A stretch of 64,000 bases of DNA from Salinisphaera shabanensis E1L3A (GTDB lineage Bacteria > Pseudomonadota > Gammaproteobacteria > Nevskiales > Salinisphaeraceae), in NCBI RefSeq assembly GCF_000215955.2, contig NZ_AFNV02000003.1, positions 1 to 64,000 of the forward strand, written 5' to 3'. The translations under genes and the position numbers were made by a program. Below the pieces are notes generated by a model. That model had not been told where the DNA came from and searched no databases. It was given only the letters and a program-made list of their open reading frames with translations. Position 1 is the stretch's first letter; each line of letters begins with the position of its first letter. Shown here piece by piece: positions 2,865-54,325 of the stretch.

Positions 2865-3163
2865 TTATACCCACGAACCAGTACTCGCTCCGGCCGCTGG
2901 CGTAGACGCGCCACACCCACTGACCGTAATCGAACCCTCGCCATGCTTGTTGATAAGCCCGTATGGGAAACGGTTTACAAGACAGCGGCGGGTACGGCGA
3001 CCCACCGGTGAATAGGCGTCCGGGAATTGCTGGATGCGTGCTAGCGTCTCGCGCACGGCTTGGCGGAACTGCTGGCCAAGGCCTGGAAGCTGCTGCTCGT
3101 AGTAATCGACAGGGTCATCAAACTCGGCTTCCGCAGCCTCGTAGAAATGGACTTGCGAGGCTA
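2865..3163 (-). pseudogene. Degenerate ParE/RelE-type toxin
   Basis: Directly behind the antitoxin stop the frame reads SQVHFYEAAEAEFDD...VDYYEQQLPGLGQQFR and later VNRFPYGLI, unmistakably ParE/RelE family. Both ends look broken. Where the start codon should overlap the antitoxin stop there is CTA in place of ATG, and no ATG, GTG or TTG follows nearby in frame. After FPYGLI the expected final strands (V.AVAH..R.PGYW) are missing; the frame runs on into an unrelated 25-residue tail, while a different frame reads WVWRVYASGRSEYWFVGITK. I read this as an inactivated toxin beside a still intact antitoxin. Confidence 0.6.
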
Positions 3164-3376
3164 GTCGTATTTGCCGAATACCTGTGACGCGGGAACGGAC
3201 TTCATCTCGCCCCGCTCGGCCGCGTCGATGCGCGCCTCCGCTTCCTCGGCCCACAGTCGGTCGAGTTCTGGATCAGGCTTGTCGAGGCTCGATAGCAGTT
3301 CTTCGACCAGGGCCGCACGCTCGGCGGGCGACAATGTCAGGGCGTCGTCCAGGATTTTATCGACAGTCGCGCTCAT
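3161..3376 (-). CDS. Addiction-module antitoxin component (CHP02574-like)
   Basis: 71 aa from ATG 3376-3374. The sequence has the typical form of 'putative addiction module component' proteins: an N-terminal helix with LSPAERAALVEELLSSL, then DPELDRLWAEEAEARI, and a C-terminal toxin-wrapping segment rich in E and R. Such proteins neutralise ParE/RelE-type toxins and repress their operon. The partner (downstream on the minus strand) is decayed, so this may be an orphan antitoxin, possibly retained because it can protect against related toxins such as the second module at 5511-6033. Confidence 0.8.
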   Translation of the reverse strand: MSATVDKILDDALTLSPAERAALVEELLSSLDKPDPELDRLWAEEAEARIDAAERGEMKSVPASQVFGKYD

Positions 3377-3470
3377 GGTTGCGGCTCGTTCGTTCCAAGA
3401 TCCAAGACTAGAACCTGCCGAGCGGCGAGTAAACGCATATCGGTTCGCCGGACTGCTTGGGCCGGATACG

Positions 3471-3500
3471 AAAAAGGCCGGCGCAATGGCCGGCCTTTCG
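3471..3500 (-). terminator. Rho-independent terminator of lpdA
   Basis: AAGGCCGGC and GGCCGGCCTT face each other around a short loop just past the lpdA stop (3522). Read on the minus strand the stem is followed by five T. Confidence 0.8.
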
Positions 3501-3521
3501 AAAGTTCCACAAGGAACTAGG

Positions 3522-5426
3522 CTACTTCTTCTTCGGAATATACAAATCCGTGAGCGTGCCCGCCGCGGCCTCGGCGGCCATGCCGACCGTCTCCGACAGG
3601 GTCGGATGCGGATGGATGGTGAGGCCGATGTCGTGCGCGTCGCAGCCCATTTCGATGGCCAGGCCCAGTTCGGCGATGAGTTCGCCGGCACCGGGGCCGA
3701 CGGCGCCGGCGCCGATGGCGCGGCCGGTTTCCTTGTCGAACAGGATCTTGGTGTTGCCTTCCGAGGTGCCCATGCCGAGGGCGCGGCCGCTAGCGGCCCA
3801 GGGGAAGGCGCCCTTCTCGTATTCGATACCGTCTTTCTTGGCCTGGGTTTCGGTGACGCCGGTCCAGGCGACTTCCGGGTCTGTATAGACCACGGAGGGA
3901 ATAACCTTGGCATCGAAGGCGGCTTTTTCGCCGGCACAGCATTCGGCCGCGACCTTGCCCTGATGGGTGGCACGGTGGGCGAGCTGCGGTTCGCCGGAGA
4001 CGTCACCGATGGCGAAGATGTTGTCCACGCTGGTGCGGCACTGCTTGTCGATGGTGATGAAGCCGCGCTCGTCCACCTTCACGCCGACGTTCTCGGCGCC
4101 GATCTTCTTGCCGTTGGGCTTGCGGCCGATGGCGGCGAGCACGCGGTCGTATTCCTTGCTCTCGGGGGCGTCCTTGCCTTCGAAGCTGGCTTTAAGGGAC
4201 TTCTTGCCGGCCTTGATGCCGGTGACCTTGGTGCCGGTCCAGATATTGCCGCAGCGGCTGCTCATGCGTTTTTGGAGCGGCTTGACCAGGTCGCGGTCGG
4301 CGCCGGGGATGAGCGTGTCGGTCATCTCGACGATGTCGACATCTGTGCCGTGGGCGGCATAGACGTTGGCCAGTTCCAGGCCGATGATGCCGCCGCCGAT
4401 CACGAGCAGCGATTTCGGGATTTCGTCCGGCGACAGGGCGGCTTCGGAATCCCAGATGCGGTCGTCTTCGGGCCAGTCGGGCAGGATGACCGGCTCGGAG
4501 CCGACGGCGATGATGCAGTTGTTGAAGCTGATCTCGCTGGTTTCGCCATCGCCATGACTATCGCCTTCGATGGAGAGCGTGTGTTCGTCCTTGAAGGTGC
4601 CCGTGCCGGTGACGACGTTTACCTTGCGCTTGGAGGCCATGGACTTGAGGCCGCCGGTGAGCTTGTCGATAACCGACTGCTTGAACTCCATGAGCTTGGG
4701 CAGCTCGATCTTGGGCTTGCCGAAGGACACGCCGTGGTTGGCCATGTCGGCGGCGTCCTCGATGACCTTGGCGGAATGCAGAAGGGCCTTGGAGGGAATG
4801 CAGCCGATGTTCAGGCAGACACCGCCGAGCACGCTGTGGCGTTCGACCAGGGTGACGTTCAGGCCCATGTCTGCAGCACGAAACGCTGCGGTATAGCCGC
4901 CGGGGCCGGAACCGAGCACCAGCACGTCGCAGTCGTAGCCGTGGTCTTTCTTCGGCGCGGACTTCGACTGGCTTTCTTTTTGACTCTTTTCGCCGCTCTT
5001 GGCGTCTTTTTCTTTGCCTTTCGACGACGATTTCTTCTTTTCACCGCCTTTCGATTGCTTCTTCTCGCGCTCTTCGGCGTCCTCGGCCTGCTTCTGGTTG
5101 GCGGCCTTTTCTTCCTTTTCGGCGTCGTCGGCCTTGGCGTCGGCCTTGGCGTCGGCCTTGTCGTCTTCGCCCTCGTCGTCGCTGCCGCTATCGGCGGCTT
5201 CGAGCAGGGCGATGACGTCGCCTTCGGAGACCTTGTCGCCTTCCTTGACCTTCATCTCCGTGATCTTGCCGGCCGCGGACGAGGGCACTTCCAGCGTGGC
5301 CTTATCCGATTCCAGCGTGATCAGCGCCTGTTCTTCCTCCACCTCGTCGCCCGCGGCGACCAGTACTTCGATGACCTCGACTTCGTCGAAGTCGCCAATG
5401 TCCGGAACCTTGATTTCCTGCGCCAT
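3522..5426 (-). CDS. lpdA: Dihydrolipoyl dehydrogenase (E3) with N-terminal lipoyl domain
   Basis: 634 aa, longer than plain E3 (about 475) because a lipoyl domain is fused in front (residues 1-78, lipoyl-lysine K42 in ESDKA). A charged linker follows (about 79-162), first acidic, then Lys/Ser-rich. The flavoprotein part starts with the FAD-binding GSGPGG, has the redox disulfide C204LNIGC209, a second nucleotide-binding GGGIIGLE and the C-terminal catalytic HPHPTLSE. It reoxidises dihydrolipoamide of the pyruvate dehydrogenase complex with NAD+. It lies downstream of aceE-aceF but is separated from aceF by a toxin-antitoxin pair. Confidence 0.96.
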   Translation of the reverse strand: MAQEIKVPDIGDFDEVEVIEVLVAAGDEVEEEQALITLESDKATLEVPSSAAGKITEMKVKEGDKVSEGDVIALLEAADSGSDDEGEDDKADAKADAKADDAEKEEKAANQKQAEDAEEREKKQSKGGEKKKSSSKGKEKDAKSGEKSQKESQSKSAPKKDHGYDCDVLVLGSGPGGYTAAFRAADMGLNVTLVERHSVLGGVCLNIGCIPSKALLHSAKVIEDAADMANHGVSFGKPKIELPKLMEFKQSVIDKLTGGLKSMASKRKVNVVTGTGTFKDEHTLSIEGDSHGDGETSEISFNNCIIAVGSEPVILPDWPEDDRIWDSEAALSPDEIPKSLLVIGGGIIGLELANVYAAHGTDVDIVEMTDTLIPGADRDLVKPLQKRMSSRCGNIWTGTKVTGIKAGKKSLKASFEGKDAPESKEYDRVLAAIGRKPNGKKIGAENVGVKVDERGFITIDKQCRTSVDNIFAIGDVSGEPQLAHRATHQGKVAAECCAGEKAAFDAKVIPSVVYTDPEVAWTGVTETQAKKDGIEYEKGAFPWAASGRALGMGTSEGNTKILFDKETGRAIGAGAVGPGAGELIAELGLAIEMGCDAHDIGLTIHPHPTLSETVGMAAEAAAGTLTDLYIPKKK

Positions 5427-49666: not shown

Positions 49667-49786
49667 TAGGCGCGCCGGCGTGCATGGGTCTTAATTCGTT
49701 GCTATCTGCGTTAATCTGCGGATCGATTGTCATTTACGGTTGGCGCGAAACATTGGCGCCGGCCAATCTATTGCCCGGTTGCTGCC

Positions 49787-52522
49787 ATGTCCGATCCTGT
49801 CGACTCTTCTGCCACGAACGATGCTTCGACTACGCCGCGCGGCCCGTTGATTCTCATCGATGGGTCGTCTTGGCTGTATCGTGCGTATCACGTGCTGCCG
49901 CCGCTCACCAACGCGGCCGGCGAGCCTACCGGCGCGATCTACGGCATGACCAACATGCTGCGCAAGTTCCTGCGCGAATACGAGGCCGACCGAATCGTCG
50001 TGGTCTTTGACCCGCGCGGCCCGACCTTCCGTAATGACCTGTTTGCCGACTACAAGGCCAATCGCCCGCCGGTGCCCGAGGAACTGTCGGCTCAGTTCGC
50101 GGGCATTCGCGATGTGGTGACGGCACTCGGGCTGCCGCTGTTGCAGGTCGACGGCGTCGAGGCCGACGACGTGATCGGAACGCTCGCCACCCGCGACGCC
50201 GGTGAGGTTCTGATCGTGACCGGCGACAAGGATATGGCCCAGCTGGTCAACGAGCGCGTGAACCTGCTCGATACCATGCAGGACAGACGCACCGACGTCG
50301 CCCGCGTGCATGAAAAATTTGGCGTCGGCCCCGAACTGATCACCGATTATCTCGCGCTGGTGGGCGATAGTTCCGACAACATCCCGGGCGTGGCCAAGGT
50401 CGGGCCCAAGACGGCCGCGAAGTGGTTGTTGCAGTACGATGGCCTCGATGGCGTGATCGCGCATGCTGGCGAAATCGGCGGCAAGGTTGCGGATAACCTG
50501 CGTGCCGCGCTCGACGATTTGCCGCTGTACAAAGATCTGGCCACGATCCGTTGCGATCTCGACCTGGGCTCGGTCGGCGAAGCGTTGACGCGCCGCGAGG
50601 CCGATATTCGCGCGCTCAGCGATCTCTATCGCGGCTACGAATTCCACCAGTTTCTGGAAGACCTGGACGCACCGGCCGAACAACCCGATGCTGATGTGCC
50701 GGCCGCCCCGGCCGAAACGCATTACCACGAAGTGCGCGACGAAGACGCCCTTGAGGCCATGATGGCCAAACTCGAGGCCGCCGAGCTGATTTGCGTGGAT
50801 ACCGAAACCGATGCTCTCTCGGCGATGCAGTCGAACCTCGTCGGTTTGTCGTTTGCGGTAGAGCCCGGCGAGGCCTGGTATGTCCCGGTCGGACACGACT
50901 ACATGGGCGCGCCGCAACAGCTGCCGATGGCCACGGTTATCGAGCGTGTGCGCGGTGCGCTGGAAAACCCCGACATCGCCAAGCTCGGGCAGCACATCAA
51001 GTACGACATCAACGTATTGCGCCGTCACGGCATTGATGTGCGCGGTGCCGATCACGACACCATGCTCGAATCCTATGTGCTCAACAGCACGGCCACGCGC
51101 CACGATATGGATTCGCTGGCCCAGAAGTATCTCGAACGCAGCACTACCAAGTTTGAAGAGGTAGCCGGCAAAGGGGCCAAGCAGATCACCTTCAACCAGG
51201 TATCGCTGGAAGAAGCCACGCCCTATGCCGCTGAAGATGCCGATATCACCCTGCAGCTGCATCATCGCCTTTACGGCGAACTGGCGGAGAGCCCGCGCCT
51301 GAAAGCACTCTATGAAGAGATCGAGATGCCACTCATGCCGGTGCTTGCACGCGTGGAAGCCAACGGCGTGCTGGTTGATCGCGCCATGCTCGGCCGGGTG
51401 AGCCAGGAAATGGCCGAGCGCATGGCTGAAATTCAGACCCAGGCGTTCGACGCGGCAGGCGGGGAATTCAATCTCGGCTCGCCGACCCAGCTCAAGGATA
51501 TTCTCTTTGATCGGCTGGAACTGCCGGTCATTCGCAAGACACCCAAGGGCGCGCCGTCGACCGCGGAAGACGTGCTGCGTGAACTGGCCGATCAGCACGA
51601 ACTGCCGGCGCTGATCGTTTCGTGGCGCGAACTCTCCAAGCTGCGCTCGACCTATGCCGAGAAGCTGCCTACGCAGATCAACCCGAAGACAGGGCGTATT
51701 CATACCTCCTATCACCAGGCTGTGGCGGCGACGGGGCGACTGTCCTCGTCGGACCCGAACCTGCAGAACATTCCGATCCGTACAGAGTCCGGCCGGCGTA
51801 TCCGCGAAGCCTTTATCGCGCCGGAAGGCCACCAGATTCTGGCTGTCGACTATTCGCAGATCGAGCTGCGCATCATGGCGCATCTCTCCGGCGACCCCGG
51901 GCTGTTGGCTGCCTTCAACGAAGAGCGCGATATTCACTCGGCGACCGCATCAGAAGTGTTCGATACGCCGCTGGACGAGGTCAGTACCGACCAGCGTCGC
52001 GCGGCCAAGGCGATCAACTTCGGCCTCATGTACGGCATGTCGGCGTTCGGCCTGGCCAAGCAGCTGGAAACCTCGCGCGAAGAGGCGGGCGCCTATATCG
52101 ACCGTTTCTTCGAGCGCTTTGCGGGCGTGCGCCGATACATGGATGAAACGCGTAAGCTCGCCAAGGCCGAGGGCTATGTCGAAACGCTGTACGGGCGCCG
52201 CCTGTATCTGCCCGACATCAATGCGCGCAACGGTGCGCGCCGGCAGGGCGCTGAACGTGCGGCGATCAACGCGCCGCTACAAGGCACCGCAGCGGATTTG
52301 ATCAAGAAGGCGATGATCGAGGTCGATGCCTGGCTGCGCGACACGGGCGAACCGGCGCGCATGATCATGCAGGTGCATGACGAGTTGGTCTTCGAAGTAC
52401 CCGATGCCGAAGCCGAGCGCCTCGGCAAGGCGATAAGTCAGCGCATGGGCGCGGTCGCAAAACTTGATGTGCCCTTGCTTGCAGAGGCCGGCATTGCGGC
52501 CAACTGGCAGCAGGCGCACTGA
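49787..52522 (+). CDS. polA: DNA polymerase I
   Basis: 911 aa from ATG 49787 (an in-frame ATG at 49727 gives a non-conserved leader). 5'-3' exonuclease domain with LILIDGSSWLYRAYH and VGDSSDNIPGV. Proofreading domain with intact ICVDTETDALS. Polymerase domain with LAVDYSQIELRIMAHLSG, KAINFGLMYGMSAFGLA and QVHDELVFEV. It fills gaps and removes RNA primers. Followed by the small-RNA array. Confidence 0.97.
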   Translation: MSDPVDSSATNDASTTPRGPLILIDGSSWLYRAYHVLPPLTNAAGEPTGAIYGMTNMLRKFLREYEADRIVVVFDPRGPTFRNDLFADYKANRPPVPEELSAQFAGIRDVVTALGLPLLQVDGVEADDVIGTLATRDAGEVLIVTGDKDMAQLVNERVNLLDTMQDRRTDVARVHEKFGVGPELITDYLALVGDSSDNIPGVAKVGPKTAAKWLLQYDGLDGVIAHAGEIGGKVADNLRAALDDLPLYKDLATIRCDLDLGSVGEALTRREADIRALSDLYRGYEFHQFLEDLDAPAEQPDADVPAAPAETHYHEVRDEDALEAMMAKLEAAELICVDTETDALSAMQSNLVGLSFAVEPGEAWYVPVGHDYMGAPQQLPMATVIERVRGALENPDIAKLGQHIKYDINVLRRHGIDVRGADHDTMLESYVLNSTATRHDMDSLAQKYLERSTTKFEEVAGKGAKQITFNQVSLEEATPYAAEDADITLQLHHRLYGELAESPRLKALYEEIEMPLMPVLARVEANGVLVDRAMLGRVSQEMAERMAEIQTQAFDAAGGEFNLGSPTQLKDILFDRLELPVIRKTPKGAPSTAEDVLRELADQHELPALIVSWRELSKLRSTYAEKLPTQINPKTGRIHTSYHQAVAATGRLSSSDPNLQNIPIRTESGRRIREAFIAPEGHQILAVDYSQIELRIMAHLSGDPGLLAAFNEERDIHSATASEVFDTPLDEVSTDQRRAAKAINFGLMYGMSAFGLAKQLETSREEAGAYIDRFFERFAGVRRYMDETRKLAKAEGYVETLYGRRLYLPDINARNGARRQGAERAAINAPLQGTAADLIKKAMIEVDAWLRDTGEPARMIMQVHDELVFEVPDAEAERLGKAISQRMGAVAKLDVPLLAEAGIAANWQQAH

Positions 52523-52558
52523 GCTCGGAATGCGGTTTAAATTTTTTTTCGAATATCG

Positions 52559-52586
52559 GGAACTCGGCGGTAAACGCCGGGTCTGA
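52559..52586 (+). promoter_or_regulatory. Sigma-E-type promoter of sRNA copy 1
   Basis: GGAACT (52559-52564), 16 bp, GTCTGA (52581-52586). This is the GGAACTT-N16-TCTGA form of RpoE/AlgU promoters. Start of transcription expected at about 52592. Confidence 0.75.
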
Positions 52587-52591
52587 CCTTC

Positions 52592-52710
52592 CATGAGCGT
52601 TACGATGCTCAACCGCTTTTCTCCCTGAGCGGTAATCAATATCCGGTTTCCCCCCAAGAACCGGAGTACTTGCCCCGACGGCGTTCCCCCGCGCCGTCGG
52701 GGTTTTTCTT
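52592..52710 (+). ncRNA. Small RNA, copy 1 of 3 (ErsA/Spot 42 locus)
   Basis: About 118 nt; the 5' end is estimated from the promoter. Four hairpins: (1) TGAGC/GCTCA at 52594-52611; (2) CCGCT/AGCGG at 52613-52632 with loop TTTCTCCCTG; (3) CCGGTT/AACCGG at 52643-52664 with loop TCCCCCCAAG; (4) an 11-bp terminator stem 52673-52702 with loop TTCCCCCG, then a T run. Three of the four loops are C-rich, which suits pairing to Shine-Dalgarno sequences. Located between polA and engB, as ErsA of Pseudomonas and Spot 42 of enterics are. Not a protein gene: no start codon with a usable frame. Confidence 0.82.
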
Positions 52711-52781
52711 GTCCAGCGGTTCTAATGGCGTCAGCTTAAGAGTGGCTTGAGCGGACCGTCGAAAATAAATCGCCGAGATCG

Positions 52782-52810
52782 GGAACTCGCCAGCCAGGGT
52801 CGTGGTCTGA
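52782..52810 (+). promoter_or_regulatory. Sigma-E-type promoter of sRNA copy 2
   Basis: GGAACT (52782-52787), 17 bp, GTCTGA (52805-52810), matching the promoters of copies 1 and 3. Confidence 0.75.
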
Positions 52811-52815
52811 CCTTA

Positions 52816-52928
52816 TACAAGCGCGGAGCTTGACCGCTTTTCTCCCTGAGCGGTAACCGAATCCGGTTCCCCCCAAGAACCGGTAAATTACCCCGATCGG
52901 CTCTCCCCCAGCCATCGGGGTTTTTTTT
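52816..52928 (+). ncRNA. Small RNA, copy 2 of 3
   Basis: About 113 nt. Hairpins: (1) CAAGC/GCTTG at 52818-52832, different bases from copy 1 but still paired; (2) CCGCT/AGCGG at 52834-52853 with the same TTTCTCCCTG loop; (3) CCGGTT/AACCGG at 52863-52883 with loop CCCCCCAAG; (4) terminator CCCCGAT.GGCT/AGCC.ATCGGGG at 52891-52920 with loop CTCCCCC and eight T. The loop sequences are kept while stems 1 and 4 have changed on both sides, evidence for a selected RNA structure. Confidence 0.82.
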
Positions 52929-52997
52929 GCCAATTCAGCTGGTTGGTTCTCCCAGAACCATCCGCTGCAAGCAAGCAAAATTTTTTTTTTATTTCTT

Positions 52998-53025
52998 GGA
53001 ACAAACCGATTCAGTGCCGGTCTGA
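52998..53025 (+). promoter_or_regulatory. Sigma-E-type promoter of sRNA copy 3
   Basis: GGAACA (52998-53003), 16 bp, GTCTGA (53020-53025). Preceded by a run of ten T followed by ATTTCTT. Confidence 0.7.
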
Positions 53026-53030
53026 TCTTA

Positions 53031-53140
53031 TGCAAGCGCAATACTTGCCCGCTTTTCTCCCTGAGCGGTAATTCGATCCGGTTCCCCCCAAGGCTGGATC
53101 GTGTGCCCTGGCGGTATTCCCCCTACCGCCGGGGCTTTTT
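53031..53140 (+). ncRNA. Small RNA, copy 3 of 3
   Basis: About 110 nt. Hairpins: (1) GCAAG/CTTGC at 53032-53048; (2) CCGCT/AGCGG at 53049-53068, loop TTTCTCCCTG unchanged; (3) CGATCC/GGATCG at 53074-53101, a stem quite unlike copies 1-2 but again self-complementary, enclosing GGTTCCCCCCAAGG; (4) terminator stem 53106-53134 (11 bp including a G-T pair), loop TTCCCCC, then five T. The most diverged copy, but it keeps every C-rich loop, the promoter and the terminator. Confidence 0.8.
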
Positions 53141-53187
53141 ATTCCCTGAGCAATCAAACTGTTGTTGTGGCTACTTTATGCCATAGA

Positions 53188-53223
53188 AAAACCGGCGCGT
53201 CGATTAAAACGGCCGGTTTTCCG
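53188..53223. terminator. Bidirectional terminator between the sRNA array and the minus-strand genes
   Basis: AAAACCGGC (53188-53196) and GCCGGTTTT (53212-53220) form a perfect 9-bp inverted repeat with A and T flanks, able to end transcripts from both sides. Confidence 0.65.
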
Positions 53224-53267
53224 ATGAGCGGTCGACGTTTGCGGTATGGCGTGTAAACAACGCTTGG

Positions 53268-53468
53268 TCAATTGGGTTTTGCCGGCATGCGCCGGTTGAG
53301 ATCCTCGCGCACGCTCAGCAGAAGCAGTTCGTGAAACAAGGACTTGATAGCGGGCGAGCGTTCGCCGCCACCGTCCCAGGCCACCTGCACATGGCCGGAA
53401 TCGATATCGATGATCTCTAGCTGGGGGCGGCCCTGTCGGTCGAGCCAGGCCCGAATGTCATATCCCAT
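53268..53468 (-). CDS. Small hypothetical protein
   Basis: 66 aa from ATG 53468, chosen because AGGAGGG stands just upstream. MGYDIRAWLDRQGRPQLEI is followed by DIDSGHVQVAWDGG and a helical C-terminus (FHELLLLSVREDLNRRM). No signal or membrane segment. I do not recognise the family. It lies 70 nt downstream of engB on the same strand and may be co-transcribed. Confidence 0.65.
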   Translation of the reverse strand: MGYDIRAWLDRQGRPQLEIIDIDSGHVQVAWDGGGERSPAIKSLFHELLLLSVREDLNRRMPAKPN

Positions 53469-53538
53469 GTATAGGCCCTCCTGAAGGATGCCGTTCGAGC
53501 ATACATGAGAATGATTCGCATTTGCACCTATCGGCGCG

Positions 53539-54153
53539 CTATTGCACCACCTGCTCGTTAACGCCGGTGGCAAAGGCCGCGATCGCAGCGCGTGCTTCGT
53601 CGATACCCTGGCGTTTGGTGGCGGAAAACAACTGCACGCTCGCGTCCGGCATCTCGCGTTCGACCTTGCGCAGGATATTGAGCTGCTGATTGCGCGACAG
53701 CTTGTCGGCTTTGGTCAGTAACAGGTGAAAACCCAGGCCTTGTTCTTCACCCCAGCCAATGAGCTGACGGTCGAACTCCATGAGGGGGCGGCGTGCATCC
53801 ATGATGAGTACAACGCCGGCCAGCGTGGTGCGCGTTGCCAGATAGCCTTCGATGAGCGCCTGCCAGGCGGCCTTGACTGCGGGCGGAACCTTGGCGAAAC
53901 CGTAGCCCGGCAGGTCAGCGAAGCGAAGTTGGTCGCTGGTAAAGAAATTGATGGCCTGTGTACGGCCTGGCGTCTTACTGGTGCGCGCGAGCCCGGTGCG
54001 CTCGCAAAGGGCGTTGAGTGCGCTGGATTTACCCGCGTTGGAACGTCCTGCGAAAGCGATTTCCGCGCCCGCCGGTTCGGGGAATGCGCGCGGATTGGGT
54101 GCTGAGCATATGAAGCGCATTGCTTTAAAATCGGCAGGCGTAATGCTTGTCAT
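53539..54153 (-). CDS. engB: Ribosome biogenesis GTP-binding protein YihA/YsxC (EngB)
   Basis: 204 aa from ATG 54153. G1 is FAGRSNAGKSSALNALC, then RTSKTPGRTQAINFF (G2) and DLPGYGFAKV (G3), and LLTKADKL (G4). It is an essential GTPase for late 50S assembly. Its pairing with polA across an sRNA locus is the classic gammaproteobacterial arrangement. Divergent from the cytochrome c4 gene. Confidence 0.96.
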   Translation of the reverse strand: MTSITPADFKAMRFICSAPNPRAFPEPAGAEIAFAGRSNAGKSSALNALCERTGLARTSKTPGRTQAINFFTSDQLRFADLPGYGFAKVPPAVKAAWQALIEGYLATRTTLAGVVLIMDARRPLMEFDRQLIGWGEEQGLGFHLLLTKADKLSRNQQLNILRKVEREMPDASVQLFSATKRQGIDEARAAIAAFATGVNEQVVQ

Positions 54154-54325
54154 GTCGAACGAACCGGCAGAAACAGAGTGAAAGAGAACAGGGCGGACAT
54201 GTGCGAGACTGTGGCGTACGTGACGGGTGGTATACAATAAAGACTATATCCAGTGGGCAGCCAAGATCCGATAGGCATCGGATAGCGCCATTGTGCTGCC
54301 GTTTTGCGTCGGAGACGACTACGAC

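Follow-up and report, generated by a model that had tools for sequence, protein, structure and literature searches.

Three tandem small RNA genes predicted between polA and engB of Salinisphaera shabanensis, and their probable relatives across Gammaproteobacteria

Several described sRNAs resemble the locus considered here in position or in design, and our account of them draws on parts of the cited papers. The sRNA sX13 lies downstream of polA, carries three C-rich loops and has been detected by Northern blot; it represses its targets through its own C-rich loops and G-rich motifs of the target mRNAs, independently of Hfq (PMC3771888). In 2013 its authors raised the question of whether comparable sRNAs are encoded at polA in other bacteria; by their account, homologues of the sRNAs in their study occur predominantly in Xanthomonadaceae and not in other bacteria (PMC3771888). 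The RNA called anti-hemB is a sequenced short transcript (a table row of PMC5688073), and the table rows of PMC5688073 and PMC3521395 name it without a function. ErsA is dependent on sigma-22 (AlgU) in P. aeruginosa (PMC7565897), and Spot 42 is dependent on Hfq (PMC3771888). In Listeria monocytogenes, the sRNAs LhrC1-5 are present in five copies of 111-114 nt, four of them at one locus; they are induced by envelope stress, are controlled by LisRK and have three CU-rich sites with UCCC per RNA (PMC4132741). The NmsR siblings of Neisseria form a tandem pair with anti-SD sequences (PMC5362039), and other tandem sibling sRNAs are tabulated in a review (PMC4211561). Thus, multicopy sRNAs with several C-rich sites each are already known in kind. 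The first-pass annotation of our locus had supposed that a tandem triplet with multiple C-rich loops per RNA was undescribed, a view that LhrC (PMC4132741) and the three C-rich loops of sX13 (PMC3771888) contradict.

Our window is a 64,000-nt stretch of the Salinisphaera shabanensis E1L3A genome, in which the gap between polA and engB holds three tandem sRNA units of about 113-120 nt each (Table 1). We consider it quite probable that three paralogous genes for trans-acting sRNAs stand here in tandem, that the RNAs are induced by sigma-E and block ribosome-binding sites with their loops, and that the genes were amplified for dosage and partial specialisation, the amplification being a local one of an sRNA found across the class. 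The units, their structure and covariation, the promoter motifs, the terminators, the conserved locus and the covariance-model kinship can all be read from sequence. Two further elements lie between the array and engB. One is an inverted repeat (53182-53226) with 15-nt arms, CATAGAAAAACCGGC/GCCGGTTTTCCGATG, perhaps a bidirectional terminator 3' of the array; the other is a 101-aa ORF on the minus strand (53268-53573) with no Pfam match, a homologue of which is detectable by tblastn in the same gap in seven of the 12 other Salinisphaera genomes examined.

Table 1. Features of the polA-engB region in the window
Feature	Position	Strand	Basis and remarks
polA	49727..52522	+	Pfam DNA_pol_A, E 3e-160; upstream neighbour on the same strand as the units; start codon taken from the ORF list
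sigma-E-type promoter, unit 1 (GGAACT ... GTCTGA)	52559..52586	+	pattern match
sRNA unit 1 (predicted)	52592..52711	+	5' end inferred from the promoter
unit 1, hairpin 1	52594-52611	+	fold
unit 1, hairpin 2	52612-52633	+	fold
unit 1, hairpin 3	52642-52665	+	fold
unit 1, terminator	52672-52703 + U tract	+	fold; terminator scan
sigma-E-type promoter, unit 2	52782..52810	+	pattern match
sRNA unit 2 (predicted)	52816..52929	+	
unit 2, hairpin 1	52818-52832	+	fold
unit 2, hairpin 2	52833-52854	+	fold
unit 2, hairpin 3	52863-52883	+	fold
unit 2, terminator	52890-52921 + U tract	+	fold; absent from the terminator-scan list
sigma-E-type promoter, unit 3 (-35 variant GGAACAA)	52998..53025	+	read from the sequence
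sRNA unit 3 (predicted)	53031..53143	+	
unit 3, hairpin 1	53032-53048	+	fold
unit 3, hairpin 2	53049-53068	+	fold
unit 3, hairpin 3	53074-53101	+	fold
unit 3, terminator	53105-53135 + U tract	+	fold; terminator scan
engB/ysxC (yihA)	53539..54237	-	Pfam MMR_HSR1, E 7e-16; convergent gene on the downstream side; start codon taken from the ORF list; gene name engB presumed from context

The three tandem small RNA units proposed by the first-pass annotation are indeed present, and each folds alone into four hairpins, three of which have C-rich loops. In order, these are hairpin 1, the CCGCT hairpin, one whose loop holds a run of C, and the terminator, which has a C5 loop and leads into a series of U's. 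The predicted energies are -57.2 kcal/mol for unit 1 (z -8.7, computed on 52588-52709), -47.3 kcal/mol for unit 2 (z -5.9, on 52812-52929) and -52.3 kcal/mol for unit 3 (z -6.1, on 53027-53143), and for each unit none of 200 shuffles folded as well as the real sequence. The CCGCTTTTCTCCCTGAGCGG hairpin is identical in all three (52613-52632, 52834-52853 and 53049-53068), and the pattern CCGCTTN{0,3}CTCCCTGAGCGG is without further match in the genome beyond these units. The loops C6 and (T/C)TCCCCC are as claimed, and stem 1 and the terminator stems differ on both sides among the three units. The compensation claimed for stem 3 was overstated: two registers of one longer helix had been compared, unit 3 keeps the CCGG core (CGATCCGGTT/GGCTGGATCG), and most differences among the copies inside this core are G-U changes on one side only.

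The array recurs across the genus. Gaps with three to six units occur in 12 of the 13 other Salinisphaera genomes (13 of 14 counting this one): six units in Salinisphaera sp. Q1T1-3, five in S. hydrothermalis, four in S. japonica and three in both S. orenii and S. halophila. In one Salinisphaera genome, which is 81% complete (G010), no unit was matched. Three genomes from two sister genera have one unit each, and Panacagrimonas perspica, of another family in the same order, has three; all 17 unit-holding gaps examined lie between polA and engB. A covariance model built from 53 units, hereafter R1, recovers the 56 known units across 18 sources and nothing else at E<=0.01; units 1, 2 and 3 of the window, all in its training set, score 98.8, 99.0 and 114.6 bits. 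In a tree of the units (short sequences, midpoint root, branch supports not considered), the first copies of the window species and of three congeners (G003, G006 and G008) cluster together, and so do their last copies, which the last copies of two more genomes (G011 and G012) adjoin. The outer copies of the triplet therefore seem older than these species, while near-identical neighbouring units in two other genomes (G001 and G007) point to recent duplications. In S. hydrothermalis (G005, locus L148, about 2880-4180) the array is interrupted, with about 1.3-1.4 kb separating copy 2 from copy 3. A record labelled Endozoicomonas sp. G2_2 (L063) carries a Salinisphaera-type array together with an 88%-identical polA, and its label looks wrong.

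Beyond the genus, R1 matches 129 of 370 genomes of Gammaproteobacteria (in the GTDB sense, Betaproteobacteria included) at E<=0.001, with Thioalkalivibrio, Thiobacillus, Propionivibrio, Azonexus, Undibacterium and Gallionellaceae among the named holders. Of 87 loci given to R1, three were dropped: one of L213 and L237, which are the same place in one genome (G353), L232 (E 0.004) and L234 (no match). The remaining 84, all outside Salinisphaera, yield 97 matches at E<=0.001. They are a non-random sample, comprising 26 loci among the best hits, 18 from genomes with several listed matches and 40 from further down the listing; two come from one genome (G194), and L227, L230 and L233 entered via a search with the anti-hemB model of Rfam (RF02837). 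At 73 of the 84 loci polA and/or engB lies within 1.5 kb, or at 69 when the usual orientation is also required; two more adjoin other genes from the polA-engB neighbourhood, those for cytochrome c4 and dsbA, and nine have none of these four genes near. The matches at L256, L233 and L268 stand beside polA and/or engB in inverted orientation, on the strand of engB. An internal control comes from the named collection, in which the hairpin 2 pattern was the sole criterion for choosing 72 loci outside the genus. R1 matches 50 of them (two of these being Salinisphaeraceae units used to build it). The stretch contains polA or engB at 46 of the 50 loci matching R1, versus none of the 22 non-matching pattern-only loci, which serve as the control for the model.

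The same places are found by models of named families. RF02837 matches 169 of the 370 genomes, 22 of them above its cut-off, and the larger count may include false matches because a control matched three of 14 well-known genomes below the cut-off. Of the 21 top-scoring R1 loci from outside Salinisphaera, 20 were scanned, and every one has an RF02837 match at the same place and on the same strand. Of 12 further R1 loci, eight match RF02837, two are sX13 at 116.7 and 103.2 bits by RF02232 (gathering score 50), one has a weak match to CcsR1 (29.7 bits, cut-off 65.3) and one has no match at E<=0.01; CcsR sRNAs belong to Rhodobacter. A search with a covariance model, which the first-pass annotation had proposed, thus connects the genus units with sX13, anti-hemB and, weakly, ErsA. 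That annotation had also taken a single gene to be the norm at this position. The three to six copies of Salinisphaera and the three of Panacagrimonas perspica depart from this, as do 13 of the 84 outside loci, which carry two or more units (five at one locus), a proportion that is not an unbiased frequency because the sample was enriched for multi-copy cases. The Salinisphaera array is best explained if an sRNA that is found across the class, usually in one copy at the polA-engB position, was amplified in this lineage. To judge from the model matches, this sRNA has separate Rfam entries under the names sX13 and anti-hemB, and probably a third under Pseudomon-1/ErsA.

Covariation among the three window copies alone would be thin evidence for selection on RNA structure, as the first-pass annotation had inferred it; the homologues support the stems. 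In a structure-blind MAFFT alignment of 53 of the 56 units, with the three Panacagrimonas units left out, 17 of 29 pairs have changed on both sides, and there are 95 doubly changed cells versus 23.7 (sd 4.6) after shuffling and at most 15 in slid controls. The six pairs of hairpin 2 are invariant in this alignment because the units were selected by the hairpin 2 pattern. Among the 97 matches outside the genus, which were not selected in this way, these six pairs do covary. Double changes there affect 28 of the 29 pairs and 712 cells, compared with 192 after shuffling and at most 108 in slid controls, in an alignment that was fitted to the model and so favours structure. Of the 97 matches, 43 contain the string CTCCCTGAG, compared with 0.16% of shuffles, although the model itself favours this string. 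As for the other loops, the longest C run in hairpin 3 is 4-9 nt in 51 of 53 units, and the terminator loop has a run of five or six C in 50 of 53.

Each unit in the window is preceded by a motif that we take, by its likeness to the sigma-E consensus, to be a sigma-E-type promoter. GGAACTN{16,18}GTCTNA has three matches in the 3.76-Mb genome, two of them inside the array, and the reversed control pattern has one. The GGAACAA variant before unit 3 also precedes the last copy in G003, G006 and G008. Across the genus and its neighbours, the best match to GGAACTT-N15/16-GTCTGA reaches at least 10 of 13 positions before 54 of 56 units versus 1.6% of shuffles, a figure to be read as description because the consensus was drawn from the units themselves; the A, A and C of the -35 element and the T and C of the -10 element are invariant in all 56. 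The matches outside the genus offer an independent test with the same consensus: upstream of 56 of the 97 the score is at least 10 (1.05% of shuffles), upstream of 73 it is at least 9 (7.5% of shuffles), and for 41 it is below 10. Control by sigma-E would accordingly seem widespread among these RNAs and no peculiarity of ErsA, for which it has been demonstrated (PMC7565897). The genome has an rpoE gene (TIGR02939, 285 bits) with CGAACTT-N15-GTCTAC about 118 nt upstream of it, and the ORF 3' of rpoE is presumably an anti-sigma gene. A scan of 52300-53600 for sigma-70 promoters found none. Many genus units also have an A/T-rich run, often AAAATTTTTT-like, before the -35 element (for example 52541-52551 and 52980-52992), possibly an UP element.

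On this basis we infer how the array may work, as regards transcription, sigma-E dependence, translational repression, targets and the reason for its copy number. Each unit would be transcribed alone, starting at its sigma-E (RpoE/AlgU)-type promoter and stopping at an intrinsic terminator of its own, so that three RNAs of about 113-120 nt would result. These would be rigid four-hairpin scaffolds, whose stems are free to change while pairing holds. The loops CUCCCU, C4-9 and UUCCCCC would be kept because their pairing with G-rich or purine-rich ribosome-binding sites of mRNAs blocks translation; by analogy with sX13, the loops may be the working parts and the stems the scaffold. Under envelope stress, sigma-E would raise all copies together and thereby damp the synthesis of selected envelope proteins and perhaps respiratory ones. 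The copy number (3-6 in the genus) would multiply the dosage, and old copies with a distinct hairpin 1 may be partly specialised.

The best target candidate that we found is the mRNA of an OmpA-family porin. The CUCCCU loop is exactly complementary to AGGGAG, and AGGGAG precedes the start of the porin gene (PF00691) in all 12 genomes in which the gene was found (14 searched). Sigma-E sRNAs usually lower porin synthesis, a role that this candidate fits. It is to be regarded as a candidate only, because conservation extends over the entire leader, the duplex spans 6 bp and, in 5-26 of 300 trials, a shuffled hairpin 2 loop binds the leader equally well or better; the loops of hairpin 3 and of the terminator have no preference for this leader (163-212 and 67-100 of 300 shuffles, respectively). 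In about 464 kb of the genome, GGGAG lies upstream of 13 of 333 gene starts, defined crudely as the first ATG or GTG of the longest ORF of at least 150 codons, versus none of 333 control positions. Other SD-like 5-mers are enriched too (GGAGA 13 versus 1, AAGGA 15 versus 2), so the match between loop and SD sequence is partly generic, and GGGGG is not enriched before the 333 starts (3 versus 2). A lead only is CAGGGAGA, found before the start of what we take to be nirK (multicopper oxidase by Pfam) in the three genomes with a full-length match (G000, G003 and G006) among the 14 searched; the match in G007 is partial (45%). The best-known target of sX13, hfq, is an unlikely one here: in all 14 Salinisphaera genomes its start region lacks four consecutive G.

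The array could instead work by titration of a protein or of ribosomes, its C-rich loops binding a protein or mimicking an anti-SD sequence and each further copy adding sites, as in sRNAs of the CsrB/RsmZ type. With several similar loops on each RNA and several RNAs in each genome, the array is laid out as such decoys are, Hfq is present in all 14 genus genomes, and the invariant CUCCCU loop contains CUCC, the core of the 16S anti-SD sequence. Against this, the loops are C-rich and, inspected by eye on the folds, contain no GGA-type CsrA sites, and sX13, the best-studied relative, needs both its loop motifs and G-rich motifs in its targets and works without Hfq (PMC3771888). We regard titration as improbable, and still as the strongest competitor of mRNA repression by the loops.

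Descent from Spot 42 has less in its favour. The units would then be diverged spf copies, acting with Hfq on mRNAs of carbon metabolism and perhaps encoding a peptide like SpfP. The shared position noted in the first pass is real: E. coli K-12 has the order polA - spf - yihA, and spf contains spfP, a gene for a small protein. An ORF of at least eight codons is present in 28 of the 56 units, and about 20 of these ORFs have a common frame that ends ...AFLPER and mostly starts at a TTG within hairpin 1. That frame, however, reads through the invariant hairpin 2 and so follows from the conservation of this hairpin, and the other 28 units have no such ORF; a conserved SpfP-like peptide is therefore not supported. 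Nor is kinship, as distinct from position, supported: R1 has no match in the polA-spf-yihA stretch of E. coli at E<=10, and Spot 42 (RF00021) is absent among the Rfam matches of the array up to E 5. We consider this descent very unlikely. Equally hard to credit is the idea that the hairpins are only a convergent terminator or a REP/BIME-like repeat and not independent RNAs, since, for all that convergent genes flank the region, terminators are expected there and the units are tandemly repeated, promoter-like elements precede nearly all units, no off-array match was listed by R1 in three whole genus genomes (only the best first-look candidates were scored), which sets the units apart from a REP element, and the relatives sX13 (PMC3771888) and anti-hemB (PMC5688073) are expressed sRNAs.

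Returning to trans-acting sRNAs amplified from a class-wide ancestor, we lean towards a broader history. A single ancestral polA-engB sRNA under sigma-E control may have existed in Gammaproteobacteria, Betaproteobacteria included, with ErsA, sX13 and anti-hemB as its branches and with the CUCCCU hairpin and the C-run loops as its working parts. Repeated tandem amplification, strongest in Salinisphaera (3-6 copies), would have turned it into a genus-wide dosage series of an envelope-stress regulator, and Spot 42 would occupy the same slot as an unrelated RNA or one diverged beyond recognition. The larger value of the array lies in this joining of separately named sRNA families. R1 offers an answer to the question asked in 2013, in that one model bridges sX13, anti-hemB and (weakly) ErsA with the locus kept, and it exposes a common sigma-E-type promoter motif at more than half of the matches tested outside the genus. 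A joined family would make the results on ErsA and sX13 comparable across a bacterial class, and the natural series of one to six copies offers a ready-made test of what sibling sRNAs are kept for. In a search of freely accessible literature, we found no paper naming any two of sX13, ErsA, anti-hemB and Pseudomon-1 together, and their union in one family may therefore be new; a search for Salinisphaera with sRNA found no paper mentioning the genus.

How, then, do the units compare with the named families? At Rfam gathering thresholds there is no match in the window, so only a relaxed scan is informative. Its best matches, all below the cut-offs, are sX13, anti-hemB, ar14 (30.2 and 25.0 bits) and Pseudomon-1/ErsA. 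The first-pass annotation is supported as regards structured sRNA genes, their position and their three copies, and it missed both the closest relatives, sX13 and anti-hemB, and the promoters. By the sX13 model (RF02232, Xanthomonadaceae), unit 3 scores 39.3 and unit 1 28.8 bits against a gathering score of 50, unit 2 being unlisted. Conversely, R1 finds the two sX13 loci, unseen in its training, at 49.9 and 44.5 bits. Like the Salinisphaera units, sX13 lies directly downstream of polA on the same strand and consists of several stem-loops, C-rich loops and an intrinsic terminator; unlike them, it is treated as a single gene in the part of PMC3771888 consulted, where we found no statement on sigma-E control. 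The anti-hemB model, also known as Burkholderia RNA 7, gives units 2, 1 and 3 scores of 39.1, 37.8 and 31.9 bits (E 1.9e-7 to 2.1e-5 with the whole own genome searched; gathering score 49.5). The anti-hemB RNA shares a near-identical hairpin 2 (CCGCUU..CUCCCUGAGCGG), followed by hairpin 3 and a CCCCG terminator, where unit 3 of the window has CCCUG. Its Rfam model begins at hairpin 2 and so leaves hairpin 1 out, and loci of the anti-hemB type adjoin engB in many genomes.

The ErsA/Pseudomon-1 model (RF01719) gives the units scores of 26.9, 23.2 and 17.3 bits (gathering score 50). At the one ErsA locus tested (L282), the gene lies directly after polA, as the first pass had indicated and as the Salinisphaera units do. 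This locus has 121 bits by RF01719, and R1 reaches it at only 24.5 bits (E 5.5e-5 in 14 kb), a weak match; the four-hairpin alignment and the C-rich terminator loop are shared, whereas hairpin 2 has diverged and is without CUCCCUGAG. RF01719 has one match per genome, in contrast to the multicopy Salinisphaera units, and its seven weaker matches all fall at places matched by R1 too. With Spot 42 only the slot is shared. LhrC differs in being a Gram-positive system controlled by LisRK, not sigma-E, at another locus, and its likeness is one of described function; by that description it works like the Salinisphaera array, being multicopy, with several CU-rich sites and induction by envelope stress, which for the array is predicted. 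Since the units miss the formal Rfam cut-offs, they are filed as members of no single family; by their model scores, they sit between the known Rfam families and help to join them.
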